A stretch of 64,000 bases of DNA from Ignavibacteria bacterium (lineage in GTDB: Bacteria; Bacteroidota; Ignavibacteria; Tepidaquicellales; Tepidaquicellaceae). The notes under the pieces were generated by a model that had not been told where the DNA came from, did not search any database, and worked only from the letters and a program-made list of their open reading frames with translations. Numbering within the stretch: the stretch's first letter is position 1; the number at the start of each line of letters is the position of its first letter. Shown piece after piece: positions 5,172-31,331 of this stretch. The stretch covers positions 124,001-188,000 of the forward strand of contig JABAQZ010000011.1 in the NCBI GenBank assembly GCA_019187405.1. Reading direction: 5' to 3'. The position numbers and the translations under genes are program-made.

Positions 5172-6461
5172 ATGAACGATGTTGTAATCAAATTAGAAGA
5201 CCTTTCAAAGCTATACAGATTGGGAGTGATCTCAACCGGCTTACTGACAAACGACATTCACAGGATATGGAACAAGATTACAGGTAAGGAAAGTGATAAT
5301 CAAAAAATCGGCGAAGTAAACGATCGTTTGGTTAATAATAAATCAAATTATGTATGGGCTTTAAAGGATGTAAACTTTGAAGTGAAAAAAGGCGAGATTA
5401 TCGGAATAATAGGAAGAAACGGCGCAGGAAAGTCAACGATGCTGAAAATATTGTCAAGAGTTACTACTCCAACAACAGGCAGGATACTATTAAAAGGAAA
5501 AGTTTCCAGTCTGCTTGAAGTAGGGACAGGATTTCATCAGGAGCTTACCGGAAGGGAAAATATTTATTTAAACGGCTCTATACTTGGAATGACAAAGCGT
5601 GAGATCACAAATAAATTCGATGACATTGCGGAATTTTCCGGAATCGGCAATTATATCGATACACCGGTAAAAAGATATTCTTCGGGAATGTATGTCAGAC
5701 TGGCGTTTGCCGTAGCAGCGCATCTCGATCCGGACATACTTGTATTGGACGAAGTGCTTGCTGTAGGAGATGCCAATTTTCAGAAAAAATGTTTAGGAAA
5801 GATACACGAAGTATCGGATGAAGAAGGAAAGACAGTTTTGTTTGTAAGTCATAACATGTCAGCAATAAAGAATCTTTGCACTCGCGGAATCATTATTGAG
5901 CAAGGTAAAATATTATATGATGGTGATGTTGACACTGCCGTAAGCAAGTATCTTGCAGCAAATGAAAAAGATACGGGTGAAAATTTAAAATCGAGAAAGA
6001 GCAGGGTTGGAAGCGGTGATTTTATTTTTTCAGATATTAAATTTAAAAACAGTAAAGGCGAATATATAAATCAGATAATATCGGGAGAAGAATTAACCGT
6101 TGAGCTGAAGTATGAATGCAGAAAGAAACTTAAGGGAAATGTTATAATTTCAATATCATTTAAAGACAATTTTGAAAATACAGCGGCGATTTTTGTTTCC
6201 GATGAAATGGGAATAAAGTTTGAGAATCTCGATGAATGCGGAAATCTTTATCTTAAGATACCAAGATTGTTGTTAAGGGGAGACAGCTATTTCATAGGTT
6301 TGTTTGCCAGCTTAGATAATACCAGGACAGAAAGTGTTTTGGATAAAATCGAAAGAGCTGCTGATTTGCAGGTTCTGCCCGGAGATTTCTGGAATACTGG
6401 CAGATTAAATCGCAGCGGAAATTTCGGAATAATGGAAGGTGTGTTTTCAGAAAGATTATAA
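5172..6461 (+). CDS. ABC transporter ATPase, Wzt type, with C-terminal carbohydrate-binding-like domain (copy 2)
   Basis: This 429-residue protein is paralogous to the gene at 1552. Walker A GRNGAGKST is at residues 81-89, the signature YSSGM at 169-173 and Walker B ILVLDE at 189-194. The region around GTGFHQELTGREN is nearly identical to copy 1 at both protein and DNA level. From about residue 275 a separate beta-rich domain begins with SGEELTVELKY, the form of the Wzt C-terminal glycan-recognition domain, and it differs clearly from copy 1. The two ATPases may serve two polymers, or both may pair with one permease outside the window. It has an ATG start, one base after the upstream stop. 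Confidence 0.9.
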   Translation: MNDVVIKLEDLSKLYRLGVISTGLLTNDIHRIWNKITGKESDNQKIGEVNDRLVNNKSNYVWALKDVNFEVKKGEIIGIIGRNGAGKSTMLKILSRVTTPTTGRILLKGKVSSLLEVGTGFHQELTGRENIYLNGSILGMTKREITNKFDDIAEFSGIGNYIDTPVKRYSSGMYVRLAFAVAAHLDPDILVLDEVLAVGDANFQKKCLGKIHEVSDEEGKTVLFVSHNMSAIKNLCTRGIIIEQGKILYDGDVDTAVSKYLAANEKDTGENLKSRKSRVGSGDFIFSDIKFKNSKGEYINQIISGEELTVELKYECRKKLKGNVIISISFKDNFENTAAIFVSDEMGIKFENLDECGNLYLKIPRLLLRGDSYFIGLFASLDNTRTESVLDKIERAADLQVLPGDFWNTGRLNRSGNFGIMEGVFSERL

Positions 6462-8998: not shown

Positions 8999-9426
8999 AA
9001 TACATCAAGCATAACGATAAACTTTTAGCCATAATTCTGCTCTCGGAATTTGAAGAAAAGGGGATACATTTTTTTACGTCAAACGATCTTTCGCAGCAGC
9101 TGGCATACATGCATCATCCCAGCGGTAAAATTATCGAGCCTCATGTTCACAATCCTGTAACGCGGGAAGTTCAATATACACAGGAAGTACTGATGCTGAA
9201 AAAAGGAAAACTGCGTGTAGATTTTTATGATGACGATCAGAATTATCTTGAAAGCAGAATTCTGAAAGCAGGAGATGTCATACTTTTATCCACAGGGGGA
9301 CATGGATTCGAAGTGTTGGAAGAACTGCAGATGATAGAAGTTAAGCAAGGACCTTATGCGGGCGATGGAGATAAGACGAGATTTAAATCTGTCAGCAAAG
9401 ATAAACTGGAGATTAAAAGCAGTTGA
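8992..9426 (+). CDS. Cupin-domain protein
   Basis: This 144-residue single-domain protein has a cupin pattern: EPHVHNPVTREVQYTQEVL for the first motif, then LKAGDVILLSTGGHGFEVLE for the second. The His residues in EPHVH and GGHGF would sit where cupins bind metal or substrate. Cupins in sugar clusters are often 3,4-ketoisomerases or epimerases acting on dTDP-sugars, but this one lacks a recognisable match to FdtA or RmlC. It is coupled by a TTGA overlap to an aminotransferase gene, so a role in preparing a keto sugar for amination is plausible but unproven. Confidence 0.65.
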   Translation: MVEYIKHNDKLLAIILLSEFEEKGIHFFTSNDLSQQLAYMHHPSGKIIEPHVHNPVTREVQYTQEVLMLKKGKLRVDFYDDDQNYLESRILKAGDVILLSTGGHGFEVLEELQMIEVKQGPYAGDGDKTRFKSVSKDKLEIKSS

Positions 9427-10538
9427 AATTTATACCTGTAAATGAACCGCTTCTTGACGGGAATGAAAAACGTTATCTTCAGGAATGCATTGAGTCCGGA
9501 TGGATTTCCTCGGAAGGACCTTTTGTCAGAATGCTGGAGGAAAAGTTTGCCGAAAGGACAGGGAGAAAATTCGGTATAGCAGTATGCAATGGGACTGCAG
9601 CTCTCGAAGCAGCAGTAATTGCTGCCGGTATTAAAAAAGGTGATGAAGTAATCATGCCTTCGTTTACAATAATTTCCTGCGCATCAGCAGTAATCAGAGC
9701 AGGAGGAATCCCGGTACTTACTGATTCAGATCCGTTGACATGGAATATGAACACGGATGAAATCAGAAATAAAATTACAAAAAAAACAAAAGCCATAATG
9801 GCAGTTCACATATACGGACTGCCCGTAGAGATGGATAAAGTTTTAAAAATAGCCGAAGAAAATAATCTGAAGGTAATAGAAGATGCTGCTGAATTAATCG
9901 GACAAAAATTCAGGGGCAGACAATGCGGAAGCTTTGGCGATGTAAGTACATTCAGCTTTTATCCAAATAAACATATCACAACAGGCGAGGGTGGAATGAT
10001 ACTGACAGATGATGAGGATATTGCAGAAAGATGCCGCTCTCTCAGAAATTTATGCTTTAAGGCATCCAGAAGATTTGAGCATGATGAGCTGGGATTTAAC
10101 TTCAGAATGACGAACCTGCAGGCAGCAGTCGGAGTAGCACAGCTTGAAAGGCTGGATAAGTTCATTGAAAAGAAAAGACAAATCGGTAAGATGTACAATG
10201 ATTTACTCAAAGAGCAGATTGAAATTCAGATTCCTGTTGTTGAAACTGATTACTCCGAAAATATATACTGGGTTTATGGGATTCTTCTAAAGAATAAAAA
10301 AAACGGAAATGCCGATATCGTTATGAAACAGTTGGCCGAAAGGGGAATTGGGACAAGACCATTCTTTTACCCGATGCATTTACAGCCGGTATTCAGAAAT
10401 AAAGGAATGTTTAAAAATGAATTTTATCCTGTTTCGGAAAACCTGTCCGAAATGGGATTTTATCTTCCAAGCGGACTTGGACTTAACGAAGACCAAATTT
10501 TGAGAACAGCCGAGGAACTAAAAAAAATTATTTCCTGA
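9423..10538 (+). CDS. DegT/DnrJ/EryC1/StrS sugar aminotransferase
   Basis: This 371-residue PLP-dependent aminotransferase acts on nucleotide 4-keto (or 3-keto) sugars. The cofactor-stacking region VCNGTAALEAA is at about residues 54-64, VIEDAAELIGQ at 151-161, and the Schiff-base Lys is Lys183 in SFYPNKHITTGEGG. The EDAAE block and overall length resemble GDP-perosamine synthases (PerA), so a GDP-4-keto-6-deoxymannose substrate fits the RMD-like gene at 542. Other 4-amino sugars are equally possible. The start is TTG, overlapping the cupin stop as TTGA. The next gene is a formyltransferase-like enzyme, which suggests an N-formylated amino sugar. Confidence 0.85.
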   Translation: MKFIPVNEPLLDGNEKRYLQECIESGWISSEGPFVRMLEEKFAERTGRKFGIAVCNGTAALEAAVIAAGIKKGDEVIMPSFTIISCASAVIRAGGIPVLTDSDPLTWNMNTDEIRNKITKKTKAIMAVHIYGLPVEMDKVLKIAEENNLKVIEDAAELIGQKFRGRQCGSFGDVSTFSFYPNKHITTGEGGMILTDDEDIAERCRSLRNLCFKASRRFEHDELGFNFRMTNLQAAVGVAQLERLDKFIEKKRQIGKMYNDLLKEQIEIQIPVVETDYSENIYWVYGILLKNKKNGNADIVMKQLAERGIGTRPFFYPMHLQPVFRNKGMFKNEFYPVSENLSEMGFYLPSGLGLNEDQILRTAEELKKIIS

Positions 10539-10573: not shown

Positions 10574-11521
10574 ATGAAAGACAAAAAAGATTTAAAATAT
10601 CTGTTCATCGGAGGGACACAGTCCGGCTATAAGCTTCTAAAAGCTGTCATAAGCGATGATTTCCACCCGTCTTATGCATTCATATTAAAAGAGGATAAAC
10701 ATGAAAAAGAAAAATATTCGCAGAAAATCTCAAAAATGTTATCAAAGCGAGGAGTTTCGTTTGAATTAAGAAAGGCATTATCGTCTGAGGATTTAGGATT
10801 CATTTCAAGATCAGGATTTGATTTTGTGATTGTTTACGGATGGAGGTCAATGATAAAACTGGATTTCAATAAATCGGGACTGCCTTTGTTTGCGGGTATT
10901 CATAATTCTTTACTCCCAAAGTACAGAGGCTTTGCGCCTTTGCAGTGGGCAGTTATCAACGGTGAAAAGTATTCGGGAATTACCATGTTCAGAATAGGCA
11001 ACGGGGACGTGGATTCAGGCGACATAATTCGTCAGAAAAAAATAAAAATCGGAGACGATGAATTTATACAGGAGATTAACAGTAAATTTACCGAAGCAGC
11101 GATAAAATTATTTACAGAGTTTATAAATTTATATTTGAAAGAAGAATTAAGATTCAGAAAGCAGAGGGAAAAAGATGCAACTTATACATGCAAGAGAATT
11201 CCCGAAGACAGTAAAATCGACTGGACAAAAAGTTCAACGGAAATATTCAACCTGATAAGAGCTACAGCAGATTCACCACACAGTGCATATTGCGCATACA
11301 AAGGTAAACGGTATTACATTTTCGAAGCAGCTCAAGGAAAATTCAATAATAAAAAATTTTCCGGGAGAATATGCGGAAGGGTTTACAGGATAAATGATGA
11401 AGGCATTGAAGTTATCTGCGGAAGCGGTACATTGTTAATAAAGAAATGGTGTAAAATTAATTCAGGAAATATCGTTACGCCGTCTTTGGAAATAAAATCG
11501 ATAAAAGAAACTTTAAGCTGA
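10574..11521 (+). CDS. Formyltransferase-family protein, probable sugar N-formyltransferase
   Basis: This 315-residue protein has the formyltransferase core IHNSLLPKYRGFAPLQWAVI, with the catalytic-type His110, and DVDSGDI with Asp147. The C-terminal part resembles the Fmt C-terminal domain. The methionyl-tRNA and sugar formyltransferases use an Asn-x-His-Asp set; here the Asn position is Gly108. The position right after a sugar aminotransferase favours formylation of a 4-amino-sugar nucleotide with N10-formyl-tetrahydrofolate rather than tRNA formylation. Whether the missing Asn reduces activity or marks a distinct subfamily cannot be told here. Confidence 0.75.
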   Translation: MKDKKDLKYLFIGGTQSGYKLLKAVISDDFHPSYAFILKEDKHEKEKYSQKISKMLSKRGVSFELRKALSSEDLGFISRSGFDFVIVYGWRSMIKLDFNKSGLPLFAGIHNSLLPKYRGFAPLQWAVINGEKYSGITMFRIGNGDVDSGDIIRQKKIKIGDDEFIQEINSKFTEAAIKLFTEFINLYLKEELRFRKQREKDATYTCKRIPEDSKIDWTKSSTEIFNLIRATADSPHSAYCAYKGKRYYIFEAAQGKFNNKKFSGRICGRVYRINDEGIEVICGSGTLLIKKWCKINSGNIVTPSLEIKSIKETLS

Positions 11522-15888: not shown

Positions 15889-17124
15889 TTGAAATCAGAA
15901 GACAAAAAAATTAAAGTATGCATAATTACTGCGATACTTCCTCCGGCATACGGCGGGGCTGAAGTTGCAGCATTTAAATATGCCGGCAGAATAAATAAAA
16001 AAAAAGATTATGAAGTGTTGGTAATCGGCTGGGACAGAACGGGATTATACATGAAGAGCAATCTTAAGTATGAGTTTGTTCATCCCGTAAGATTTTATGA
16101 CAATCCCAAAGATGCAAAAGGTATATTAATTTACTTTCAGCAGCTTCATCACATGTGGAATTGTTTTTGGGCTTTGCTTTTACCGATGTGGAAATACAGG
16201 AAGAAATATGATTTTGTGCATAATTTTAATTCCGGATTTGCATTTAACAGGATTGCCATATTCATCGCAAAGCTGCTCGGGAAAAAAGTTATTACTGAAA
16301 CATCATTAATCGGTGATGATGATCCAGTTTCACTTGGAAGATTTAAAAACTGGAAAGACTATTTAAAACCGAAGTTCATACGGTACTTGTTTTACAAAAT
16401 GGCAGACAGATATGTCAGCAAATCAGAAGTGATTACGGATTTGTTCAAAGTATCCGAGATTCCGATGTCAAAGGTCGTTCAGATTCCATATTCAGTTGAT
16501 ACAGATAAATTTTTTCCTTTGCAAAACGGTCAGAAGCAGGAATTGAGATCAAAGCTGGGTCTACCGGAAAACGGAATAATAATCTTATTTGTTGGCGGAA
16601 TAAATTTCAGAAAAGGAGTTCATTATCTGCTTGATTCATTTATTCAGCTCGAGAGGAAATATCCTGATTTGAAACTCATAATTGCGGGACCCACATATAA
16701 GTATGATCAAAATTACATTTCAGAAATAAAAAATAAAATAATATCAAATAAACTTGGAAGCAAAATATTTCTTACAGAAGAAAACATCAGCAACGTTGAT
16801 GAATTTATGCAGACTTCGGATATTTTTGTACTTCCATCGAGGCAGGAAGGATTTCCGATTTCGATAATAGAAGCGATGTCCTGCGGTCTTGCTGTTATTG
16901 CATCTGATATTCCGGAAATATCCAAAGCTCAGATTAATAACAAAGTTGACGGTTATGTTTTTCCGGTTGGTGAAGTTAACAAATTAGCCGAGATAATGGA
17001 AAATCTTATTAACAACAGGAATGAAATGAGCAGAGTAGGTCAAAATGCAAGAAGCAAAGTATTAGAAAACTGGTCTTCGGAAATTGTTGACAGGATGTAC
17101 AAAAATCTTTATCTGTCGATTTGA
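15889..17124 (+). CDS. Glycosyltransferase family 4
   Basis: This 411-residue GT-B enzyme begins with ILPPAYGGAEVAAFKYAGRI, the glycine-rich N-terminal loop. The C-terminal domain has ILFVGGINFRKGVHYLLDSF and VLPSRQEGFPISIIEAMSCG with E-x7-E. It is a retaining cytoplasmic transferase, donor unknown. The start is TTG. Confidence 0.9.
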   Translation: MKSEDKKIKVCIITAILPPAYGGAEVAAFKYAGRINKKKDYEVLVIGWDRTGLYMKSNLKYEFVHPVRFYDNPKDAKGILIYFQQLHHMWNCFWALLLPMWKYRKKYDFVHNFNSGFAFNRIAIFIAKLLGKKVITETSLIGDDDPVSLGRFKNWKDYLKPKFIRYLFYKMADRYVSKSEVITDLFKVSEIPMSKVVQIPYSVDTDKFFPLQNGQKQELRSKLGLPENGIIILFVGGINFRKGVHYLLDSFIQLERKYPDLKLIIAGPTYKYDQNYISEIKNKIISNKLGSKIFLTEENISNVDEFMQTSDIFVLPSRQEGFPISIIEAMSCGLAVIASDIPEISKAQINNKVDGYVFPVGEVNKLAEIMENLINNRNEMSRVGQNARSKVLENWSSEIVDRMYKNLYLSI

Positions 17125-17154
17125 GAAATCGTCGGATAACAACAAACAACTCCT

Positions 17155-18300
17155 TTGCCAATATTTAATAAATTGAAGCGGGATAAAATAAAAATATTAT
17201 ATACGATTCCAAATTTTAATACTGCGGGAAGCGGTAAAGCTCTCATTAATGTAATATCCAAGCTTGATAAAAATATATTCGAGCCGAGCATTTGCTGCAG
17301 ACATGATAAAGGTGAATTGTTTAAAACAGCCGAAGATTTAAATGTGCCGATTTACATTTCTTCTTTTACGACTGTAGTAAAACCAAGATTGAGAGGTATC
17401 AGAAATATTTACAAGCTGTCAAGATTTTTTAAAAAGATAAATCCCGACATAATACATTCGTATAATTACTCAGATGATTATTCAGAAGGACTTGCATCTA
17501 AATTGTCACGTATCAAGTGGGTTTATACAAAAAAAAACATGGGATGGGGAAGCAATGCTTGGAAAATCAGATCAAGGATTGCAGACATGATAATACCGCA
17601 GAATGAAGAAATGATTAAAAAACTTTTTGCTGATTACGAGAAAATAAAACTTATTCCGATCGGCATAGATATAAATGAATTCTCATTAAATGGTAAAGAT
17701 TCAAGCGTAATAAAAGAATTTAATTTGGAAAATTCTTTCCCGTTAATCATGACGATTGCAAACGTAATTCCCATTAAAGGATTGGATGATCTCATAAAGG
17801 GATTTAAACTGGTTCTCGAAGATTATGAAAATGCAAAACTTTTGATAGTAGGAGAAAACAGGACTGAATACGCACATGAATTAGAGTCGCTTGTAAGTAC
17901 TCTTGGAATCGGCGATAAAGTAATATTTACCGGAAGGAAATCCAATATTAAATCATTTCTTAGCATAAGCGATTTGTTTATTCTTTCATCTAAGAAAACA
18001 GGAGAAGGCGGACCAATATCGATACTTGAATCAATGGCAAGCGGACTTATTACCATTGGAAGCGACGTACCGGGAATAAGAGACCAATTCAGGGAATTTC
18101 CCGAACAGCTTTTTGAATCACAGAATCCCGGGTCTATCGCAAATAAAATTTTAAATATGCTGAAAAAGTCCGACAGTGAGAAACAAATAATAAAGGACAA
18201 GCAAAAAGAATTTATAACAAGGAATTATTCCATCGATAATGAAGTCGAAAAACTTCAAAAAGTATATATCAAGCTGGCCAAATACAATCGTCCTGTTTAA
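17155..18300 (+). CDS. Glycosyltransferase family 4
   Basis: This 381-residue GT-B enzyme has the N-terminal loop PNFNTAGSGKALINVISKL. The C-terminal domain has ANVIPIKGLDDLIKGFKLV and SSKKTGEGGPISILESMASG, then GSDVPGIRDQF. The TTG start is 30 bases after the previous stop, and the stop is three bases before the next gene. The donor is unknown. Confidence 0.9.
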   Translation: MPIFNKLKRDKIKILYTIPNFNTAGSGKALINVISKLDKNIFEPSICCRHDKGELFKTAEDLNVPIYISSFTTVVKPRLRGIRNIYKLSRFFKKINPDIIHSYNYSDDYSEGLASKLSRIKWVYTKKNMGWGSNAWKIRSRIADMIIPQNEEMIKKLFADYEKIKLIPIGIDINEFSLNGKDSSVIKEFNLENSFPLIMTIANVIPIKGLDDLIKGFKLVLEDYENAKLLIVGENRTEYAHELESLVSTLGIGDKVIFTGRKSNIKSFLSISDLFILSSKKTGEGGPISILESMASGLITIGSDVPGIRDQFREFPEQLFESQNPGSIANKILNMLKKSDSEKQIIKDKQKEFITRNYSIDNEVEKLQKVYIKLAKYNRPV

Positions 18301-18303
18301 ACT

Positions 18304-19362
18304 TTGAATCCCATAAATTTTTACAAATATCTTCCTTACTATTTTAGGAAGAGATTCAAAGAAAAATATATTATAATAGAGAGTGATGATTGGGGAATGG
18401 AAAGAGCGCTTACTGTCGAAACTTTGGAATGGATGAAATCAAAATTCGGTAAGGAAAATTTTACGAGATGGACGACAGATGCATTGGAAACAAACGAGGA
18501 TCTTGACCTGTTGTTTGATTTGCTGAATTCTGTCAGAAATAAATACGGCAGTTGTCCGGTTATTACGGCAAATTTTATAACACATAACATTGACTATGAG
18601 AATGGCGGCGAACTTAAATTCAAACCAATCAGCAAAGGATTCAATCCGGAATCTGAAGATGTCCGTGAAAAATATTTTGCCGGAATAAGCAATGGCTGTA
18701 TATTTCCACAACTACACGGATATTCTCATTATAATTTAACTAATCTCAAAAAGTATTTCGAGAGTCACGAAGGCAGAGAGGCTTTTATGAAAAAAAATTT
18801 ACCGGCTAAATCAACGATAAAATCGAATTTATCATTTCTTCACGGCGAATTGAGCAAAGCAAACAGCGAAGCAAAAATGATTTCAGATGCTGCCGAAGAT
18901 TTTAATAAAATTTTTGGTTTTTATTCATCAACTTTGATTCCTCCCGCTTTCATATTTGATATGGGATTTTCTGAGACATTATTAAAGAATAAAATAACAA
19001 TGGTACAATCTTCAAACAGATTAATAAACTCTGACAAGAAAAAATGCATGATTCCATTTTTCAGGAAGAAAAAAGGAATTGTCTGGTCAATTAGAAATGC
19101 AAGGCTTGATCCGTATCCCGGATATGATTATAACCATGAGCAATGTTTGCATTCAATAAAAAGGGCATTTGCAAATAATTCTCCTGCAATTATAGATTTT
19201 CACAGAGTAAATATTTCAGGTAAATTTGCTCCTGAATACAGAAGCAGAACGTTGACAGAATTTAAAAAACTGACTGAAGGAATATTTAAGAGCTGGCCGG
19301 ACGTAAAATTCATTCATTCACAAAAATTAAATGAAATGCTTTGGCAACACCAAGTCAGATAG
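18304..19362 (+). CDS. Polysaccharide-deacetylase-like protein
   Basis: This 352-residue protein has features of the glycoside hydrolase/deacetylase (NodB-like) fold. IIIESDDWGM carries two Asp residues (28-29) where NodB enzymes have their first motif, and QLHGYSHYN gives the HxxxH pair His138 and His142. The next step DFHRVN at about residue 299 could supply another His. It has no signal peptide, so it would act in the cytoplasm on a precursor or lipid-linked sugar; that is unusual, because most polysaccharide deacetylases act outside. The family match is distant. The start is TTG, and the last 22 bases overlap the next gene. Confidence 0.6.
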   Translation: MNPINFYKYLPYYFRKRFKEKYIIIESDDWGMERALTVETLEWMKSKFGKENFTRWTTDALETNEDLDLLFDLLNSVRNKYGSCPVITANFITHNIDYENGGELKFKPISKGFNPESEDVREKYFAGISNGCIFPQLHGYSHYNLTNLKKYFESHEGREAFMKKNLPAKSTIKSNLSFLHGELSKANSEAKMISDAAEDFNKIFGFYSSTLIPPAFIFDMGFSETLLKNKITMVQSSNRLINSDKKKCMIPFFRKKKGIVWSIRNARLDPYPGYDYNHEQCLHSIKRAFANNSPAIIDFHRVNISGKFAPEYRSRTLTEFKKLTEGIFKSWPDVKFIHSQKLNEMLWQHQVR

Positions 19363-20009
19363 GTTATCTTAGAATAAATTTAGATCTAATTAAAGAGCCG
19401 GTATTGATAGTCGGCTCTAAGCAGTATGATTTTGACAAAATGAGTATAAGAAAATTTCTCGATGGCAAAGGTATCTCCATTGTAACGGGAATTGATATTT
19501 CAGAAGGTGAAGGCGTTGACGAAGTAGCCGACATAACAATTAAAGACTCGGAATTTTTTAAAAAAAATCAGGAGAGATTTAACACGGTGCTTTGCATGGA
19601 GATTATGACACATGTAAAAAATCCGTTTGCTGCTGCAGACAATATTATGAAACTGCTTGCCATAAACGGAACTGCGTTATTTTCGGAATGCTTTGTCAGA
19701 AAGATTTCAAAAATGCCTGCCGATTACTGGAGGTTTACTTATGACGGAACAAAGATGCTTTTTTCAGGGCTTGAGTTTGACGATTCAAAAGCAATGATAT
19801 CGCTTACACGGGAAAAAAAAGAAATGCTTCTTCCATTAAAGCATCCACTTCCTCAGATTTTGCCTGAAAAACATACTGATGAATCTGTTACGGGATATTT
19901 TCTGAGGAGATTGCACAGAAAATTTTTATCAAAAGGAATTTTTGGAATGTCAAGACTCTTTCCGGAAATAACAATCTATTCAGCAGGTTATAAGAAATTA
20001 AAAGCGTGA
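19341..20009 (+). CDS. Methyltransferase-like protein with degenerate SAM motif
   Basis: This 222-residue protein resembles class I methyltransferases in its second half: VLCMEIMTHVKNPFAAADNI, then LFSECFVRK and MPADYWRFTYDG, a block common in glycan-cluster methyltransferases. Motif I is unusual (LIVGSKQYDF, with no GxGxG). SAM binding is therefore uncertain. The TTG start lies inside the end of the preceding deacetylase-like gene in another frame. Confidence 0.55.
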   Translation: MATPSQIGYLRINLDLIKEPVLIVGSKQYDFDKMSIRKFLDGKGISIVTGIDISEGEGVDEVADITIKDSEFFKKNQERFNTVLCMEIMTHVKNPFAAADNIMKLLAINGTALFSECFVRKISKMPADYWRFTYDGTKMLFSGLEFDDSKAMISLTREKKEMLLPLKHPLPQILPEKHTDESVTGYFLRRLHRKFLSKGIFGMSRLFPEITIYSAGYKKLKA

Positions 20010-20019
20010 AAAGAATAAT

Positions 20020-21003
20020 ATGAAATCCGGTGTTTCAATAATCACTCCTCTTTATAACGGGATAAATACTCTTTATGAAACTTATGAAAGTATTTTAAAT
20101 CAGGATTATGATTTATGGGAATGGATTTTATTTGACGACGGCAGCAAAGACAATACACAGAAGCTTGCCAGAGAAATTTCCGGTAAGCATCCGGACAAAA
20201 TATTTTTTTACGAGCATGAAGGGAATAAAAATTTCGGTACGGCATTCACTCGAAACCGTGCCGTGGAAAAATCAAAATATGAGATCTTATCTTTTATTGA
20301 TCAAGATGATGTATGGTATAATGACAGACTGAGCCACCAACTGAAGATTTTTTCACTGCATTCCGATTGTGCAATGATTTGGGGTCCTTCTTTGTATTGG
20401 TATAAAGACAGAGAATTCAAGCAGCCCGTCGGTTACAAAGCAAAAGGGCTTGAAAGCGGAATGTATTTGCCTCCGGAATTTATAAAAATATTTTTGAGCA
20501 ATTTCTGGGGAACACCGCTGCCGAGCGCTACTTTGATTAAGAAAAAAAACTTTAACAGTGTAAACGGTTATGAAGAAAGCATCAAAGGCTCGGAAGATAT
20601 TGTACTCTGGCTGAAGATTGCTGATAAATTCCCGGTTTATTATGAGGATAAAATACTTGTAAAATACAGAAAGCATTCCGCATCTACTTTGAGAACTGCA
20701 AATGAAAGCGGCGAGATGAATGAATGGAACATTGTTTTTTACAGATGGGTATTGGAATTTCTTAAAGACAGCAAAGCCGGAAATGAACTAACAGATGATA
20801 TTGAATTTAAGTTATACAACTGCTTAAAAAAAATTTCTTCCGGAAACAATTATTTTATCAGCAGAAAAATTCTCTATGATAAACTCTGCGAATTTCCTGA
20901 AATTAAAGATAAATACAGGAAAGATTTTTTGCTTGACATAATTTTACCATACAAATTATCCTCAAAAATATCCGCTAAGCTTAGATTTGACTTCTTTAAA
21001 TAA
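20020..21003 (+). CDS. Glycosyltransferase family 2
   Basis: This 327-residue GT-A protein starts SGVSIITPLYNGINTLYETY. It contains ILFDDGSKDNT and the metal-binding IDQDD (residues 93-97), then SEDIVLWLKIAD with the catalytic-type acidic residues. It is an inverting transferase, cytoplasmic or membrane-associated, donor unknown. It begins with ATG, ten bases after the previous stop. Confidence 0.92.
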   Translation: MKSGVSIITPLYNGINTLYETYESILNQDYDLWEWILFDDGSKDNTQKLAREISGKHPDKIFFYEHEGNKNFGTAFTRNRAVEKSKYEILSFIDQDDVWYNDRLSHQLKIFSLHSDCAMIWGPSLYWYKDREFKQPVGYKAKGLESGMYLPPEFIKIFLSNFWGTPLPSATLIKKKNFNSVNGYEESIKGSEDIVLWLKIADKFPVYYEDKILVKYRKHSASTLRTANESGEMNEWNIVFYRWVLEFLKDSKAGNELTDDIEFKLYNCLKKISSGNNYFISRKILYDKLCEFPEIKDKYRKDFLLDIILPYKLSSKISAKLRFDFFK

Positions 21004-21012
21004 ACGGAATAT

Positions 21013-22413
21013 TTGAAAACCCCCGTAATACCCGCCAGGCAGATATTTGCCAGAAAAAAAACAGAGCATTCTCTTAACTACAAAGCAATTTGTATTTTTG
21101 CTTCAACCGGTTTTTTCCTTGGTGAAGATACATATTTCAATGATGTTATGGCATTGCAGCCGTTTACTGAATATCTGTTTGATGAAAACGATTACGTAAT
21201 CAGCTCAGATAAATACTGGAGCTGGCATTATAACCCTAAAGATGTTTCACTGAAACAGTCAACGGAAGAGTTTGCACATTTGTTTGAAAAGATTGTTTCA
21301 AAAAATTTAAATGGGAAAAAAATAATTCTGCCTTTATCAGGAGGAATTGACAGCAGGACACAAGCTACGGCAATCGAAGATACAGAAAACATTTTCTGCT
21401 ATTCCTATAAATTCGACAACAGCTTTGACGAGACTAAATACGGGCGAATGATCAGCGAAGCAAGAGGTTTTAAATTCAAAGAGTATGTCATCGAAAAAGG
21501 TTACCTGTGGAACGTCATTGATAGACTCGCAGAAATTAACATGTGTTTTGCGGATTTTACACATCCGAGACAAATGGCAGTGATAGATGACATCAGCAAA
21601 CAAGGTGATGTATTTTTTCTTGGGCATTGGGGAGATGTGTTGTTTGACGATATGAGAGTTGCCGATAATCTAACAAATGAAGAGCAGACGGAGATTGTCA
21701 TAAAAAAAATTATTAAGAAAGGCGGAAAGGAATTGTCCGAAAAGTTATGGGAAGCATGGGGACTCGATGGGAATTTCATTGATTATTTAAAAGAGCGGAT
21801 TTCAGTTTTACTGAAAGAAATAAAAATCGAAAATGCTAATTCAAAAGTAAGAGCATTTAAATCAATGTACTGGGCTCCAAGATGGACGAGTGCAAATATG
21901 AATGTATTCAGCGATTTTCGTCCGGTTTATCTGCCGTATTACAGTGATGAAATGTGCGAGTTTATCTGCGGTATTCCCGAATCAATTTTATCCGGAAGAA
22001 AGATTCAGATTGAATACATTAAAATGAAAAATCCACAGCTTGCAAAGATTCCCTGGCAGACTTATGATCCATTTAATTTATACAACTACGGTAATTATGA
22101 TAAACCGGCTAACATACCTGCAAGAGCATTAGGGAAACTGAAAAGAGTTGTCAGAGAAAAAATTTTTAATAAAAAGAACATTACAAGAAACTGGGAACTG
22201 CAGTTTGCAGGCGATGAAAACGAAAATAAACTGAAGAGTTTTCTTTATGAAGAAATGTTTATAAAAGAGCTTGTACCTGAAGAAACAGTAAACTTATTCT
22301 TCAATAAATTTAAGGCAGATGATCCCGTGATTTATTCTCATCCGGTAAGCATGCTGCTGACATTATCGCTGTTTGTCAAACACTTTTATAAAAATACCGA
22401 TGTCAGCGGATAA
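21013..22413 (+). CDS. Asparagine-synthase-like ATP-pyrophosphatase protein without N-terminal Cys
   Basis: This 466-residue protein has a PP-loop, PLSGGIDSR (Ser109-Arg115), of the asparagine synthetase C-terminal domain. FLGHWGDVLFDDM and LPYYSDEMCEFICGIPESIL follow as in Asn-synthase relatives. The protein starts MKTP, so it lacks the Cys2 nucleophile of the glutaminase domain; residues 30-75 may be a remnant of that domain. It could adenylate a carboxylate of a uronic acid and use free ammonia or another nucleophile, or it could have another role. The start is TTG at 21013. Confidence 0.7.
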   Translation: MKTPVIPARQIFARKKTEHSLNYKAICIFASTGFFLGEDTYFNDVMALQPFTEYLFDENDYVISSDKYWSWHYNPKDVSLKQSTEEFAHLFEKIVSKNLNGKKIILPLSGGIDSRTQATAIEDTENIFCYSYKFDNSFDETKYGRMISEARGFKFKEYVIEKGYLWNVIDRLAEINMCFADFTHPRQMAVIDDISKQGDVFFLGHWGDVLFDDMRVADNLTNEEQTEIVIKKIIKKGGKELSEKLWEAWGLDGNFIDYLKERISVLLKEIKIENANSKVRAFKSMYWAPRWTSANMNVFSDFRPVYLPYYSDEMCEFICGIPESILSGRKIQIEYIKMKNPQLAKIPWQTYDPFNLYNYGNYDKPANIPARALGKLKRVVREKIFNKKNITRNWELQFAGDENENKLKSFLYEEMFIKELVPEETVNLFFNKFKADDPVIYSHPVSMLLTLSLFVKHFYKNTDVSG

Positions 22414-23596
22414 ACTGAAAATAGCAATATACTCGGGTGATATACCATCGACGACATTCATAGAAAATCTGATTGAAGCATTATCAGAACAAGAATTTGA
22501 AGTTTATCTGTTTGGCAAATTGAGAAGGAAAGTGAATTATAAAGAAAACATAAAATTGTTTCCTACGCCGCAGTCATCATTAAGATTGATAATATTTGTA
22601 ATATTAGAAGGAGCTAAGCTGTTTATAAAAAACAAAAGCAAATTTAATAAAACAATCAAACAGCTAAAGAATAAAAATAAAAACAAAAAAAGTTTTGTTA
22701 GAAATCTTGGATTCATACTGCCGGTATTGAATAACCAGCCTGATATTTTTCATATTCAATGGGCAAAGACTGTAAATCTAAATTATGAATTATACAATTT
22801 GCTGGATTGTAAGATTGCTGTGAGTCTTCGCGGAGCACACATTAATTATTCACCGCTAAATGATCCGGAATTAAAAAAAGCTTATGAAATATATTTCCCC
22901 AAAACAGATGGATTTCATGCGGTGTCAAAAGCAATTGCCGGTGAAGCCGTAAAATATGGCGCTGATAAAAATAAAATCAGAGTGATCCATTCAAGCGTAA
23001 AAGATGAATTCCTACTGAGCAATGCAATCAGGAAAAACAGGAATGATATTTTTGAAATAATTTCAATCGGCAGACATCACTGGAAGAAGGGATATCATTA
23101 TGCATTAGATGCCATGAATTATCTTAAGGAAGAAGGGTTCAAGTTCAATTATACCATTATTGCTCAGGGAGATATACCTGAAGAAATTTTATTTCTTCTG
23201 AATGAATACAGACTGAACGATCATGTTAAGATTATAAAAGGAATGGAGCATGTTAAGTTAATGGAAAAATTAAAGAGTTCTGATCTATTGCTGCTGCCGA
23301 GCGTCGAAGAAGGGATAGCAAATGTGGCGCTTGAGGCAATGTCTTCCGGCGTAACAACGCTGTCAACTGATTGCGGAGGCATGAATGAAGTAATCCATAA
23401 CGGGGAAAACGGTTTTATCATACCCGTAAGAGATCCCAAATCTATTTCCGGGAAAATCATGGAAATTTCACGCTCTGATCCTGAAACTCTTTTGAATATA
23501 TCCTTAAATGCGCTTGATACAATTAAGACAGAATTTTCCAGAGAAAAACAAAAAAGAGAATTCAGTGAGTTTTATAATTCACTTGTTGACGGATGA
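22400..23596 (+). CDS. Glycosyltransferase family 4
   Basis: This is a 398-residue GT-B enzyme. I chose the ATG at 22400 (MSADKLKIAIYSGD) rather than a TTG at 22373, because the family's first strand starts just after it; it overlaps the previous gene by 14 bases. The acceptor side has VSLRGAHINYSPLNDPEL. The C-terminal domain has IGRHHWKKGYHYALDAM and LLPSVEEGIANVALEAMSSG. It resembles WcaL-like transferases and is related to the gene that follows. The donor is unknown. Confidence 0.88.
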   Translation: MSADKLKIAIYSGDIPSTTFIENLIEALSEQEFEVYLFGKLRRKVNYKENIKLFPTPQSSLRLIIFVILEGAKLFIKNKSKFNKTIKQLKNKNKNKKSFVRNLGFILPVLNNQPDIFHIQWAKTVNLNYELYNLLDCKIAVSLRGAHINYSPLNDPELKKAYEIYFPKTDGFHAVSKAIAGEAVKYGADKNKIRVIHSSVKDEFLLSNAIRKNRNDIFEIISIGRHHWKKGYHYALDAMNYLKEEGFKFNYTIIAQGDIPEEILFLLNEYRLNDHVKIIKGMEHVKLMEKLKSSDLLLLPSVEEGIANVALEAMSSGVTTLSTDCGGMNEVIHNGENGFIIPVRDPKSISGKIMEISRSDPETLLNISLNALDTIKTEFSREKQKREFSEFYNSLVDG

Positions 23597-24771
23597 AGAT
23601 AGGCATAGTATTATCTGGAATACCTAAATATTCAGAAACATTTTTTCATTATAAGATAAAGGGATTATCGGAAGCAGGTTTTGAAGTAAAAATATTTACC
23701 GGCGATAAAAGGCAGAAAGAATTTCCATATAAGCAATATCCTGCATATCCTGTTTTATCCGGAAAACCATTACGCCAGTTTTTTTTAACATTAATTATCT
23801 TAATTAAGACATTATTTATTGCTCCAAAAAGATTTTTGCGACTTTATTCGGGAGAAATGAAAGATGGGAAATCAATAGGAGAAATATTAAAGACTATTTA
23901 CATTAATGCTCATATAATTACGCATGAGCTTGACTGGCTTCATTTTGGTTTTGCTGCTACCGCAATAAGAAGAGAATTGGCCGCGGGAGTCATGGGGGCA
24001 AAGATGGGTGTGAGTTTTCGCGGATATGACATAAACATATATCCGCTGAAAAATCCTGGATGCTATGATAGACTTTGGAAAAATGTTGACAAAGTTCATA
24101 CAATCTCGGAATATCTTTTTCAGAAAGCTGTTTCGATGGGATTGAATTCAAAAACACCTCATGAAAAAATTACTCCTGCAATTGAACCTGATAAATTCAA
24201 AATAAGAAATTCAGATGGCAGTCTGGGAAATAGAATTCACATACTTACAGTAGGGAGATTAAACTGGATAAAAGATTACGAAACTGCAATTGAGACAATG
24301 AAAATTTTAAAGAGCAAAGGGATAAGTTTTGATTACAATATTATAGGCTCCGGAAGCGAATTGGAAAGATTGAAATTTGCCGTTTATCAGTCGGGACTTG
24401 AAAATGAAGTAAATTTTTTTGGAATAAAGTCACATGAAGAAGTAAGAGTATTAATGATGAACACCGATATTTATTTACAGACAAGCATGCAGGAAGGATT
24501 TTGCGTTTCAGTACTGGAAGCTCAGGCGGCTGGTTTGCCGTGCATTGTAAGCGATGCAGACGGATTAAGGGAAAATGTGATAGATAATTTCACAGGGTGG
24601 ATTGTAAAAAAAAGACGTCCAGATTTGTTTGCAAAAAAAATCATCGAAGTTATAAAAATGAGCAACGAAGAAAGGCTGGAAATCATGAACAATGCGCGTG
24701 CAAGAGCGGAAAAAGATTTCAGTATAAAATTGCAAAACGAAAAATTCAGAAATTTTTTTCTGCAAATTTGA
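23593..24771 (+). CDS. Glycosyltransferase family 4
   Basis: This 392-residue GT-B enzyme is coupled to the previous gene by an ATGA overlap. The acceptor side has SFRGYDINIYPLKNPGCYD and the donor side TVGRLNWIKDYETAIETM and QTSMQEGFCVSVLEAQAAG. The similar placing of RGxxINxYPL/SPL in the two neighbours suggests that they are an old tandem pair. The donor is unknown. Confidence 0.9.
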   Translation: MKIGIVLSGIPKYSETFFHYKIKGLSEAGFEVKIFTGDKRQKEFPYKQYPAYPVLSGKPLRQFFLTLIILIKTLFIAPKRFLRLYSGEMKDGKSIGEILKTIYINAHIITHELDWLHFGFAATAIRRELAAGVMGAKMGVSFRGYDINIYPLKNPGCYDRLWKNVDKVHTISEYLFQKAVSMGLNSKTPHEKITPAIEPDKFKIRNSDGSLGNRIHILTVGRLNWIKDYETAIETMKILKSKGISFDYNIIGSGSELERLKFAVYQSGLENEVNFFGIKSHEEVRVLMMNTDIYLQTSMQEGFCVSVLEAQAAGLPCIVSDADGLRENVIDNFTGWIVKKRRPDLFAKKIIEVIKMSNEERLEIMNNARARAEKDFSIKLQNEKFRNFFLQI

Positions 24772-24786
24772 ATAATAAATCTCAAA

Positions 24787-26268
24787 ATGATCGGATTACT
24801 GCGCACATATAAATCAATAGGAAGGGTGGCAATGATTTTGCTGCTGATTATTCTGATAATTTCTGCTTTAGTAAGCAGAATATATGCAGGCGTGATTCAT
24901 CTCGATGCCGGATATATTGCAGAAATTTTTTTCTTTGGGTGCATTTTAATTTTAGCATTCAAATTATTCAGCGGACGAATATCGCTTTCAGGAGGAGATA
25001 AAATTTTTAAAGCGCTGCTGATTGCAGGTTTATCGCTGAGGATATTATTTGCAGTTCATGACATGATAAACAGACCTGTTCAGGAAAGTGATTACATAAA
25101 GCACGAAAAGTTAGGAGCGCGAATGGCCTTTGAGGGAGAGTTTTATGATTTTGCCGGGGTGGAGCTAAGAAATTTCAGACAGCCCGGACTTCCGTTTTTA
25201 TTTGCGGCCGGACTGCTGGTTTATAATTCACAGGTTACATTTGCTTTGATTATGATACTTATTTCATTAGGCGTGCTTATATCCGGATATTATCTTTTCA
25301 GGGGTCTTAAGAATTCCGGAGCGTTAATTTCTTTTGGTTACATTGCAGTTTCTCCAAACATGCTGTTTATGGCATCTAATTCCAATACTCAGCTTTTATT
25401 TTTTCTGATGATTATTCTGTTGTTTATTGTTTTAAAAAATTATTCCGGAAAATTTTATCAGCTTGTAATAATAGGCGCGCTGCTTGCCGGAGAGATGTAT
25501 GTAAGATTTAATTTTCTGCTGATATTTTTACTCATACCTTATATGATGGAATATTATTCTGTTGCGGGGACCGGAGTTAAATTGAAAGAAGCATTTGCAA
25601 AATCCGGTATAGTAATTTTAATTTTCATAATATTTTACAGTCCGTGGTTAATAAGAAATTACAATGTTTACGGGAAGTTAAGATTAATGCCGAGCGAGGG
25701 ACCGAGATTTTACAGTTCAAATGTAATAAAAGATTACACAAAAGCCGGAGGATACAACGGAATACCTGATTCAGTAATTAACAAATACAAACATCTGCCT
25801 GAATCCGAATTCGACAGAGCTTTAAGAGATGACGCCATAAATTTTGTAATTGCAAATCCTGTAAATTATGCAAAAGGAATACCTTTCAGAATAATGAAAT
25901 ATTCAGGCAGGCAGGACTGGACGATTGGTTATTTCTTTGACCATGCCGGATATTCAAATTCAAGAATTCTAAATGAAATCATTCAGGGAATTGAAAATAT
26001 TTTTTTCTGGATAATCCTGATTTACCCATTGATGTTTTTCATTAAGCGCAAAAGAATGGGAAATCTTTCGGCGTTTATAATTTGGTCTTATTTGATTTAC
26101 TCTCTTCTTCTGCTTTCGGTATCTGAGACAAGATCCAGATACAATTTCCCGTATATACTTTTCCCCGTTTTTGCCGCATCGTTTGTTAATTCAAGCTTTA
26201 AGAACGTTAATAAAGATTTACTTGACGAAGTAGAATCCGGAATTTCCACCAAAGATGAAAGTATTTAA
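24787..26268 (+). CDS. Polytopic glycosyltransferase, GT39-like (GT-C)
   Basis: This 493-residue membrane protein has about ten hydrophobic segments. The first outer loop reads QESDYIKHEKLGARMAFEG, with an acidic residue where GT-C enzymes have their catalytic Asp, and FRQPGLPFLFAAG matches the RPPGYP-like motif of the GT39/ArnT group. Such enzymes use a polyprenyl-phosphate sugar on the periplasmic side. No polyprenyl-phosphate sugar synthase is recognised in the window. The start is ATG; its stop overlaps the next gene by 14 bases. Confidence 0.8.
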   Translation: MIGLLRTYKSIGRVAMILLLIILIISALVSRIYAGVIHLDAGYIAEIFFFGCILILAFKLFSGRISLSGGDKIFKALLIAGLSLRILFAVHDMINRPVQESDYIKHEKLGARMAFEGEFYDFAGVELRNFRQPGLPFLFAAGLLVYNSQVTFALIMILISLGVLISGYYLFRGLKNSGALISFGYIAVSPNMLFMASNSNTQLLFFLMIILLFIVLKNYSGKFYQLVIIGALLAGEMYVRFNFLLIFLLIPYMMEYYSVAGTGVKLKEAFAKSGIVILIFIIFYSPWLIRNYNVYGKLRLMPSEGPRFYSSNVIKDYTKAGGYNGIPDSVINKYKHLPESEFDRALRDDAINFVIANPVNYAKGIPFRIMKYSGRQDWTIGYFFDHAGYSNSRILNEIIQGIENIFFWIILIYPLMFFIKRKRMGNLSAFIIWSYLIYSLLLLSVSETRSRYNFPYILFPVFAASFVNSSFKNVNKDLLDEVESGISTKDESI

Positions 26269-27628
26269 TAATTTCAAAATCATCAGATATCTTAATCCGA
26301 CATGGTATTTCAATCTTCAGCCGGATGCTGAAAAAAATTTCTCCACATGTATTTTTAATTCTCGATACAAGAATTCATTTAAAGGATTAGATAAATCGCT
26401 AAAAGAAGATTCAGAATATTCTTCGACTACAGCAGCTGAACTCGATGCAGGTTATAATTTATGGAACAGAGGTTACCTGATTTACAATAACGGAACGAAA
26501 AGCAGTTTACTCAATCACGAGAATAAGATTTCAGCAATAGACGAATACATATTTGCCAGAAAGTACTATTCAAAAAAGTTTGTTATATATCTTTTACTTC
26601 GAAGCATAGCCGGGTTAACAAATCCGTTTAAGGAGATAAAATCATTTTTCAAAACAAGAAACATTTCAAAGTCGGATACAATTAGGATGAAAGCCGTTTA
26701 CGAATCATTTAATGATTTTAAATCAGAGCTTGTAAGTTCAAACCCTCTTGTCAGCATAATAATACCCACGCTCAACAGATACGAATATCTTAAAGATGTA
26801 TTGACTGATCTTGAAAAGCAGGAGTATAAAAATTTTGAAGTGGTAATAACAGACCAGACTGATACCCCTGACACGGCATTTTACAAAAAATTCAGTTTAA
26901 ATTTAAATGCGGTTTTTCAAAATGAAAAAGGGCAGTGGTATGCAAGGAACGAAGCAATAAAAATTTGTAAAGGTACTCTGCTATTATTTTTTGACGATGA
27001 CTCGAGAGTCGAACCTGATTGGATAACAAATCATTTGAAGTGTCTGGATTATTTCAATGCTGATATATCGGCCGGTGTATCGATATCGGTTACAGGCGAC
27101 AAGGTTCCCGAAAACTACGGCTATTTCAGATGGGCGGATCAGTTCGATTCAGGAAATGCATTGGTAAAAAAGGAAGTGTTCGTAAAAGCAGGAATGTTTG
27201 ACAGGCAGTTTGACGGTCAAAGAATGGGTGACGGTGAATTCGGATTGAGAGCTTATCTAAGCGGATTCAGGAGCATATCAAATCCTTACGCCAAGAGAGT
27301 TCATCTAAAAGTCGGAACAGGCGGATTAAGGCAGATGGGTTCATGGGATGCCTTCAGGCCTAAAAACTTTTTTGCGCCGAGACCGGTTCCGAGCGTACTT
27401 TATTTCTTCAGAAAATATTTTCCTACAAAGAATGTGATTGATGCATTGATTATAAGACTGCTTCCTTCTTTAATTCCATATAAATGGAAAGGAAAAAAAA
27501 TTTTATATCCGCTTTTAATTCCAGCTGCAATCATTTTTTTTCCGGCAATATTAATTCAACTGGCGATTTCTTGGTCTAAATCAACTGCCATGCTCAGACA
27601 AGGAGATAAAATTGAAAAGCTCGTTTAA
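26255..27628 (+). CDS. Glycosyltransferase family 2 with N-terminal extension and C-terminal membrane segment
   Basis: This 457-residue protein has a GT2 domain starting at about residue 165: LVSIIIPTLNRYEYLKDVL, then FEVVITDQTD and LLFFDDDSRV with the metal-binding acids near residue 247. MGDGEFGLRAYLSGF is the acceptor-side acid block. The first 160 residues form an extension with no recognised family. A long hydrophobic stretch near the C-terminus (ILYPLLIPAAIIFFPAILI) should anchor it in the inner membrane. The ATG overlaps the previous gene. Confidence 0.82.
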   Translation: MKVFNNFKIIRYLNPTWYFNLQPDAEKNFSTCIFNSRYKNSFKGLDKSLKEDSEYSSTTAAELDAGYNLWNRGYLIYNNGTKSSLLNHENKISAIDEYIFARKYYSKKFVIYLLLRSIAGLTNPFKEIKSFFKTRNISKSDTIRMKAVYESFNDFKSELVSSNPLVSIIIPTLNRYEYLKDVLTDLEKQEYKNFEVVITDQTDTPDTAFYKKFSLNLNAVFQNEKGQWYARNEAIKICKGTLLLFFDDDSRVEPDWITNHLKCLDYFNADISAGVSISVTGDKVPENYGYFRWADQFDSGNALVKKEVFVKAGMFDRQFDGQRMGDGEFGLRAYLSGFRSISNPYAKRVHLKVGTGGLRQMGSWDAFRPKNFFAPRPVPSVLYFFRKYFPTKNVIDALIIRLLPSLIPYKWKGKKILYPLLIPAAIIFFPAILIQLAISWSKSTAMLRQGDKIEKLV

Positions 27629-29993: not shown

Positions 29994-31331
29994 ATGAATA
30001 GGAATCCATACAAAGCTGAATTCATGCTGATATTCAGCATACTTTTAGGACTTACCATGCTTTTTAACAGAAATCTGAGTGAAGTATATTCAGGTCTGAT
30101 AGTTATTTATGGATTATATAAAATTTTTGCAAGCAAGAACCGCGATGGTTCTGCTCATATATTTGCGGCATACAGTATGGGCATTGAGGTGTTGTTCAGA
30201 ATGAATTCCGGAGGATTGGGATATGAGTGGGGAAAATATGCGGCTGTACTTTTATTGATGGCCGGATTTCTTGTCGAAAAAATGAAAAAGGAAACACCTG
30301 TAATTTATTTGATGTTTTTGGCTTTGCTGATTCCTTCAATATTTGTTATAGATTATCCTACGTTTGACAGATCGAGACAAATGGTTTCGTTTAATCTTTC
30401 CGGTCCGATAACGCTTGCCGTTTCAACAATTTATTTTTATAGAAGAAAAATGACTCCTCCGCAGTTAAGAAAGCTGCTGTTAAGCATGCTGTATCCAATA
30501 GCTGCAATGTCAGTATTTATTTATTTCAGAGCAGGAGATCTTGAGACAGTTGAATTTACGACGGAGTCAAATTTTCAAGCGAGCGGTGGTTTTGGACCAA
30601 ATCAGGTATCAACGATTTTCGGACTGGGTATTCTTATCATTGCAATTGCTCATTTCCAGAGCATCAGATTGTTCAAATTAAAATTTGTAAATATTATTCT
30701 CCTTTTTGCTTTTCTGATAAGAGGACTTGCAACTTTTTCCAGAGGTGGTATGCTTGCTCCTCTGCTGGCTATTTTTTTATGTATAATTATAATGACATTT
30801 TTGGATGCGAATTTTAAGACAAAGCTCAATAAAGTAGTTTTTGCTTTTATGTTTGTATTTATTATTGGAATACTCGGTTTCAATTATGTAAATGATGTCA
30901 GCGAAGGCTTGCTTGAAATGAGATTTAAAGGCGAATCTATGTATAATAAAGAGAAGAGCAACATATTCAGCGGAAGGGATGAGATTTTTGCGGAGGACAT
31001 TGAAATTTTTGAAAATAATGTTTTGGTGGGAGTAGGTCCGGGAATGTCAATGGAAAAACGCGCTGAGATAAGCGGTGTCGAAACCGCTGCACATATTGAA
31101 TATTCAAGGCTCCTTGCCGAACATGGTGTTTTTGGAATAATTGCGATTCTCATCATCGTAATTTTTCCCGTGAAGTATTTCATTAAAACAAAATCCGTTG
31201 ATAACAGAATCATGCTGATCCTTTGTATAACATTTGTATTTTTTACGATGGGGCATGCTGCTATGAGAACTGCCGCGCCGGGATTTATTTATGGCATGGC
31301 GTTTATTAATATTATCCGAAGAAGGGAATGA
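29994..31331 (+). CDS. O-antigen ligase/polymerase family membrane protein
   Basis: This 445-residue polytopic protein has about ten to twelve hydrophobic segments. Its large periplasmic loop ends in SGRDEIFAEDIEIFENN, then LVGVGPGMSM and AAHIEYSRLLAEHGVFGII. This is the Wzy_C pattern (G.GPG near an H.....L.E.G) shared by WaaL ligases and Wzy polymerases; the sequence alone cannot separate the two. It would join or polymerise undecaprenyl-linked glycans in the periplasm. The ATG start follows a 73-base AT-rich gap, and its stop overlaps the next start (ATGA). Confidence 0.85.
   Translation: MNRNPYKAEFMLIFSILLGLTMLFNRNLSEVYSGLIVIYGLYKIFASKNRDGSAHIFAAYSMGIEVLFRMNSGGLGYEWGKYAAVLLLMAGFLVEKMKKETPVIYLMFLALLIPSIFVIDYPTFDRSRQMVSFNLSGPITLAVSTIYFYRRKMTPPQLRKLLLSMLYPIAAMSVFIYFRAGDLETVEFTTESNFQASGGFGPNQVSTIFGLGILIIAIAHFQSIRLFKLKFVNIILLFAFLIRGLATFSRGGMLAPLLAIFLCIIIMTFLDANFKTKLNKVVFAFMFVFIIGILGFNYVNDVSEGLLEMRFKGESMYNKEKSNIFSGRDEIFAEDIEIFENNVLVGVGPGMSMEKRAEISGVETAAHIEYSRLLAEHGVFGIIAILIIVIFPVKYFIKTKSVDNRIMLILCITFVFFTMGHAAMRTAAPGFIYGMAFINIIRRRE

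Follow-up and report, generated by a model that had tools for sequence, protein, structure and literature searches.

In a 64,000-nucleotide stretch of an Ignavibacteria bacterium genome (contig JABAQZ010000011.1, positions 124,001 to 188,000; hereafter the window), four consecutive genes at 18304-22413 encode a deacetylase-like protein, a methyltransferase, a family 2 glycosyltransferase (GT2), and an asparagine synthase (Asn-synthase)-like protein. They sit within a polysaccharide-assembly cluster of about 40 kb that is one large surface-polysaccharide locus. We find that the first three genes are a decoration cassette filling a variable slot, and that the Asn-synthase-like gene opens a conserved core, in which two family 4 glycosyltransferase (GT4) genes follow it. 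Its product is a member of a widespread Bacteroidota group that lacks the glutaminase domain. This glutaminase-less ligase group, which is apparently undescribed, is the new part of our findings. We lean toward a reading in which the locus tailors a glycan in the cytoplasm, where the cassette occupies its slot and the Asn-synthase-like protein would be a ligase that activates a carboxylate at the expense of ATP without producing ammonia itself.

The four genes and their core partners are as follows.

17155..18300, + strand: GT4 glycosyltransferase of family F2 (Pfam Glycos_transf_1, 107.5 bits; F2 in 69/80 loci), core partner and left border of the swappable slot
18304..19362, + strand: NodB/CE4-fold deacetylase-like protein without a signal peptide (from model fold and invariant residues)
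19341..20009, + strand: class I methyltransferase-like protein (PF13489) with a variant motif I (VGSK), overlapping the preceding gene by 22 nt
20020..21003, + strand: GT2 glycosyltransferase (PF00535, 84.1 bits)
21013..22413, + strand: Asn-synthase-like protein, synthetase domain only (TIGR01536 positions 169-384 only)
22373..23596, + strand: GT4 of family F3, core partner (60/80 loci)
23593..24771, + strand: GT4 of family F1, core partner (74/80 loci)
26255..27628, + strand: GT2 of family F4, core partner (54/80 loci)

A conserved core next to a swappable slot

An alignment of the Asn-synthase-like protein was scanned over one genome per species (84,980 genomes), yielding 262 pattern matches, 255 of which were confirmed. 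The best 80 were kept, and their flanks were examined up to 10 kb on each side; this set is biased to close relatives, and many of its loci lie on incomplete contigs. Nearly all are from Bacteroidota as judged by genome title. The partners found in the flanks are the three GT4 families F1, F2, and F3 (74, 69, and 60 of the 80 loci) and the GT2 family F4 (54 loci), and the immediate neighbor of the Asn-synthase-like gene is one of the three GT4 families in 68 loci. Among the 59 well-covered loci, 45 carry all three GT4s and 57 carry at least two. The deacetylase-like gene (at least 36% identity) is present at 9 of the 80 loci, the methyltransferase gene at 9, and a GT2 gene of the window type at 8. 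A deacetylase-group profile is positive at 13 of the 80; it was built from the same rows, and what it shows is that no loci were gained.

The slot itself was analyzed where the genes follow the order F2 - x - Asn-synthase-like - F3/F1 within five genes, which holds for 24 loci; L066-L069 and other loci whose F2 call is merged or truncated are left out of this count. The slot is empty in 14 loci, holds a single unclassified gene in 3, the deacetylase-methyltransferase pair with further genes in 5, the deacetylase-like gene alone in 1, and other content in 1. The single gene matches Acyl_transf_3 in the two cases that were scanned, and the third looks alike. Because the slot can be occupied by unrelated modifiers or by nothing, the view that the four genes constitute one self-contained module is ruled out. 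The arrangement illustrates how decoration genes are exchanged in such clusters around a core that is retained.

One outlying occurrence, L076, places an Asn-synthase-like gene (53% identity to the window protein) with F8, F2, and F1 neighbors on a 5.8 kb contig of a metagenome-assembled genome titled Erysipelotrichaceae, F8 being a full-length AsnB-type family. This likely reflects mis-binning rather than transfer.

Gene order was also compared among relatives, using a sample of 59 related genomes in which the window's own genome is counted. Strong homologs of the deacetylase-like (E ≤ 1e-59), methyltransferase (E ≤ 1e-86), and Asn-synthase-like (E ≤ 1e-186) proteins occur in an identical set of nine. 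The order deacetylase-methyltransferase-GT2-Asn-synthase-like is kept in eight relatives of the same family, exactly in four of them and with one extra methyltransferase gene in the other four. The extra gene is of the Methyltransf_24 type (Pfam was run on one) and lies between the methyltransferase and GT2 genes. In G318, one of the exact-order relatives, the deacetylase gene is interrupted by the contig end. The deacetylase and methyltransferase genes are also found together with an Asn-synthase-like gene in one Cyclobacteriaceae genome. This sample overlaps the 80 loci, and the two are not independent (the eight relatives are L064-L071, and G186 is L141). The original prediction had proposed looking for the four-gene order in other genomes, and its recurrence in these eight dispels the concern that the genes are never together elsewhere.

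All four open reading frames (ORFs) are intact and on the + strand, with spacings of -22, +10, and +9 nt and only 3 nt to the preceding gene; synteny coordinates show the 22-nt overlap again in relatives. The ratio of nonsynonymous to synonymous substitution rates (dN/dS) is 0.05-0.12 for all four genes in a comparison of relatives G310 and G296, and thus all four are under purifying selection. The tight packing that had been claimed for the block is real, but its boundary is not: one-strand tight packing extends over most of the region from about 3.9 to 40 kb, and much of the rest of the cluster is also colinear in relatives. Linkage among the four genes is therefore no stronger than their linkage to neighbors. 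In wider draws from the phylum, deacetylase matches were found in 18 of 296 genomes, including the window's own (best match 27-32% identity in all but two), and the methyltransferase had a match at E ≤ 1e-5 in 4 of 198. A tblastn search against plasmids gave no match.

An Asn-synthase-like family without the glutaminase domain

The Asn-synthase-like protein matches PF00733 at 24.9 bits (cut-off 21), which places it in the asparagine synthetase (AS)-fold superfamily. Its match to TIGR01536 covers residues 14-227, begins only at profile position 169, and scores 41.8 bits against an NCBIfam cut-off of 267; likewise, its hhalign alignment with full-length AsnB-type paralogs starts at residue 171 of the latter. 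The entire glutaminase domain is therefore absent. Given ORF lengths of 455-505 amino acids, the same is true at all 80 loci, and none of the 80 ORFs begins with Met-Cys. The missing N-terminal Cys had been noted from the window alone, but the loss is larger than was then claimed and takes in the whole domain. A literature search of incomplete coverage turned up no description of an Asn-synthase-like protein lacking the glutaminase domain in a glycan cluster.

A structural model of the protein (predicted local distance difference test score, pLDDT, 92.8) gave VIA Z scores of 25.9 with TsnB9 (391 residues), 20.5 with CarA, 19.7 with human ASNS, and 18.1 with both beta-lactam synthetase and Escherichia coli AsnB. 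The hydroxyamidotransferase TsnB9 (7ylz) is thus the best structural match and is also the best sequence-profile match (E 2.3e-4), but the match runs only from TsnB9 residue 139, leaves the N-terminal part without a counterpart in the window protein, and has 12% identity. CarA and beta-lactam synthetase share the AS-like fold and an intact PP-loop, and CarA has Leu where AS has Glu in the printed profile alignment. However, these enzymes have about 12% identity to the window protein and a different genomic setting, and both keep a vestigial N-terminal domain that is absent here.

Residue conservation was assessed in 42 aligned sequences, comprising the window protein and those of 41 of the 80 loci. 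The SGGxDS PP-loop of ATP-pyrophosphatases and D208 are invariant in all 42, and H205, R115, N393, and E395 are further invariant polar residues of the family. In contrast, neither residue of the Glu-Tyr dyad (D-E-x-F-x-G-Y) is kept in any sequence. The amidating Glu position holds V in 39 and L in 3; the Tyr position holds M in 34, a gap in 3, and I, T, L, F, or D in one each, with these columns placed by aligning GHWGDVLFDDM with GDGADE(I/L)FxGY through hhalign and inspection rather than by superposition. Other AS-like enzymes use Lys in catalysis. According to one report (PMC13060819), the dyad is conserved in amidating AS-like enzymes, and changing its Tyr to Phe in PesC abolishes activity. 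From these residue patterns, carboxylate adenylation looks preserved, whereas transfer of glutamine-derived ammonia does not.

One alternative is that the protein nevertheless makes a primary amide (uronamide), as WbpS and AsnB-type enzymes do, with ammonia that is either free or supplied by the glutaminase half of a different AsnB. Genes of the full-length AsnB-type family F8 do lie at 24 of the 80 loci, in many cases next to the same GT4, with a Met-Cys start in 22 of 25 F8 ORFs, and longer Asn_synthase ORFs are present elsewhere in the window genome. There is also precedent in Porphyromonas gingivalis, where WbpS is described as forming a uronamide (PMC7468200). However, the amidating dyad is missing from all 42 sequences, and 56 of the 80 loci have no F8 gene in their examined flanks, such that we consider uronamide formation unlikely.

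The losses of the glutaminase domain and the dyad, together with the very stable linkage to GT4 genes, would also be consistent with a pseudo-enzyme that acts as a nucleotide-binding scaffold or regulator of a GT4 complex. This seems improbable to us in view of the complete retention of the PP-loop and D208 and the additional invariant residues H205, R115, N393, and E395. An ATP-dependent ligase remains the reading that we favor.

Proteins encoded by the cassette

An AlphaFold2 model of the deacetylase-like protein, made with 13 sequences, has a pLDDT of 87.2, and its first predicted strand starts at residue 22. The predicted structure has the NodB fold. It matches PdaC in Foldseek (E 3.9e-7) and superimposes on 3rxz with a Z of 18.7 (3.2 Å over 245 residues), on 3qbu with 18.7, and on ArnD with 15.2, with identities of 7-15%. 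The motifs of NodB domains include a tandem Asp (MT1) and two His residues (MT2), as given in PMC10967932. Both are found here as D28 and D29 and as His-x3-His (H138 and H142), all invariant in 14 of 14 sequences and in keeping with CE4/NodB enzymes. R264, D298, and H300 are equally invariant and are candidates for the MT3 Pro/Arg, MT4 Asp, and MT5 His. By Pfam, the protein has only a sub-threshold DUF2334 match (E 0.022), and just 1 of 13 members of its group matches PF01522, at a best E of 0.0062. Profile matches to PSI_PsaE and weak Pfam matches to GH57 were dropped as weak leads; the GH57 matches agree with the relationship between the NodB and GH57 folds that the structure comparisons show.

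Within its first 60 residues, no 19-residue stretch exceeds a Kyte-Doolittle mean of 0.18, which bears out the predicted lack of a signal peptide. The deacetylase-like protein probably acts in the cytoplasm as a metal-dependent hydrolase. Elsewhere in the Bacteroidota, five loci (L006, L008, L011, L012, and L017) carry tandem pairs of deacetylase-like genes whose products have 27-32% identity to the window protein.

The methyltransferase matches PF13489 at 31.8 bits (cut-off 27), and 10 of 10 orthologs match this family at E ≤ 0.01. Its motif I is [VI]-G-S/A-K in all ten (VGSK, with VGAK in one and IGSK in one) and is followed by an invariant G-I-D-x-x-E-G-x-G-V; G25, K27, and D52 are invariant. 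The earlier description of a degenerate enzyme lacking GxGxG is thus correct as to GxGxG only. Decay is ruled out by the conserved motif I and a low dN/dS (0.05), and the motif is, on sequence grounds, a conserved variant. The protein aligns to UbiG of the Methyltransf_23 group after motif I, from which it differs in having VGSK(x)Y (VGAK in one) in place of GxGxG in all 10 orthologs. The GT2 (PF00535, 84.1 bits) has the acidic D-x-D motif as FIDQDD, invariant in the nine sequences aligned.

A possible route for cytoplasmic glycan tailoring

We infer a route whose steps would all precede export and take place at the cytoplasmic face. First, the NodB-fold enzyme would take an acyl group, probably N-acetyl, off a sugar carried on a nucleotide or lipid; the methyltransferase would methylate, and the GT2 would add a sugar. 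The Asn-synthase-like protein would use ATP to adenylate a carboxylate (of a uronic acid or of an acid substituent) and pass it to an amine that it does not itself produce from glutamine (free ammonia, an amino acid, or an amino sugar). A uronic acid is possible in principle, because two UDP-sugar dehydrogenases that pass the Pfam cut-off are encoded on the same contig.

Several observations weigh against this route. The deacetylase-like protein has no PF01522 match up to E 1, and 6 of 13 members of its group have weak GH57 matches, such that its reaction could differ from deacetylation. Sequence searches with it gave no solved NodB enzyme structure. No gene in the block or the conserved core makes or names a carboxylated sugar, and the two dehydrogenases are 54-58 kb upstream. 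Loss of the dyad, with a Tyr that is essential in PesC, could mean that the Asn-synthase-like protein catalyzes a quite different reaction or none. Finally, the examined flanks of 67 of the 80 Asn-synthase-like loci have no deacetylase-like gene, which argues against the four-gene grouping. The proposal that the genes form a route for altering an N-acetyl group or carboxylate before export therefore stays plausible, given the parallel with the Wbp/Vim pathway (PMC7468200), but not as a single module, since the slot is swapped or empty elsewhere.

The same count bears on a narrower alternative, in which the deacetylase-like protein frees a sugar amine and the Asn-synthase-like protein couples a carboxylic acid to that amine, as proposed for VimE and VimA of P. 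gingivalis (PMC7468200) but with a different ligase. In three lineages, Ignavibacteria, Cyclobacteriaceae (L141), and Flavobacteriaceae (L109), a deacetylase-like gene (at least 36% identity) does precede the Asn-synthase-like gene by one, three, or four positions, and lactam-forming AS-like enzymes are among the next structural neighbors. However, the 67 loci that lack the deacetylase-like gene indicate that the ligase normally works without it, and we regard such a pair as improbable.

With considerable doubt, the favored ligase reading can be sharpened: a widespread Bacteroidota family of glutaminase-free, dyad-free AS-fold ligases might, as surface polysaccharide is made, join a glycan carboxylate to a non-ammonia amine (an amino acid or amino sugar). 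If true, these proteins would constitute a novel class of ligases forming glycan amides, hard-wired to three GT4 glycosyltransferases. The charge of a bacterial surface glycan, and how it is recognized, depend on its amide and amino-acid substituents. A conserved AS-fold protein that keeps its ATP site but lacks both the amidation dyad and a source of ammonia points to chemistry that the annotation "asparagine synthase" obscures across many Bacteroidota.

Relationship to known surface-glycan pathways

A known parallel is the Wbp/Vim pathway of P. gingivalis, as described in PMC7468200. There, the CE4-like protein VimE is proposed to remove an acetyl group and VimA to attach an amino acid; the uronamide of the linking sugar of the type IX secretion system (T9SS) is the product of WbpS (PGN_1234), an AsnB-type amidotransferase. 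The window likewise pairs a CE4-like protein with an AsnB relative for the putative tailoring of a sugar in a Bacteroidota surface-glycan pathway. However, WbpS is called an AsnB homolog in that text and the window protein has no glutaminase half, and the gene order and partners also differ. No PF01522 match over the cut-off was found in the window genome, whereas relatives carry PF01522 and GNAT genes; VimA and the Wbp genes were not searched for. On present evidence, the block resembles Wbp/Vim in logic and does not appear to be a member. ArnD and other NodB-fold enzymes (CE4 subclass NodB1.2) share the fold, tandem Asp, and His-x3-His with the deacetylase-like protein, which differs in falling below PF01522 and in its 7-15% identity. 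ArnD is a NodB-like enzyme of a cell-envelope sugar pathway, according to PMC10967932.

Cluster setting

Other features of the cluster, which also includes many further GT2 and GT4 enzymes, are as follows.

1552-2838 and 5172-6461: Wzt-like ABC transporter subunits
2842-3918: pyruvyl transferase
9423-10538 and 38260-39483: DegT aminotransferases
10574-11521: formyltransferase
29994-31331: O-antigen-ligase-like protein
39476-40066: initiating sugar transferase
40264-42186: CapD-like dehydratase
42220-43902: Wzi-like protein

The formyltransferase was considered as an obligate partner of the deacetylase, in the manner of ArnA/ArnD, and rejected: its homolog is found only in G310 and G296, whereas the deacetylase is in all eight relatives (partial in G318), with the formyltransferase region not covered by G318 and G304. 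A promoter and terminator scan gave a number of sites no higher than in shuffled sequence.

Relatives differ from the window at several junctions. At 24771-24787, the window has a 15-nt junction, and L064-L068, L070, and L071 carry a cassette between the GT4 gene at 23593 and the gene at 24787, encoding a GT2, a WbqC-like protein, a hexapeptide transferase, an unassigned protein of about 307 amino acids, and a DegT aminotransferase. Between the genes at 24787 and 26255 (window 26255-26268, compared with L066, L067, and genomes G304, G306, G307, G310, G296, and G315), six relatives have a CE4 gene and an adjacent gene, a pair that the window and G316 lack. The CE4 gene matches PF01522 in the one relative scanned and the adjacent gene is GNAT-like in one scanned, an arrangement that recalls VimE/VimA.

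The GT4 genes at 15889 and 17155 (window 15889-18300) form a single ORF of 797-814 amino acids in G306, G315, and G304, representing a natural GT4-GT4 fusion. Just downstream of the polysaccharide cluster, a subtilase (43953-46355) and an Omp28-like protein (46386-47474) both carry T9SS sorting domains.

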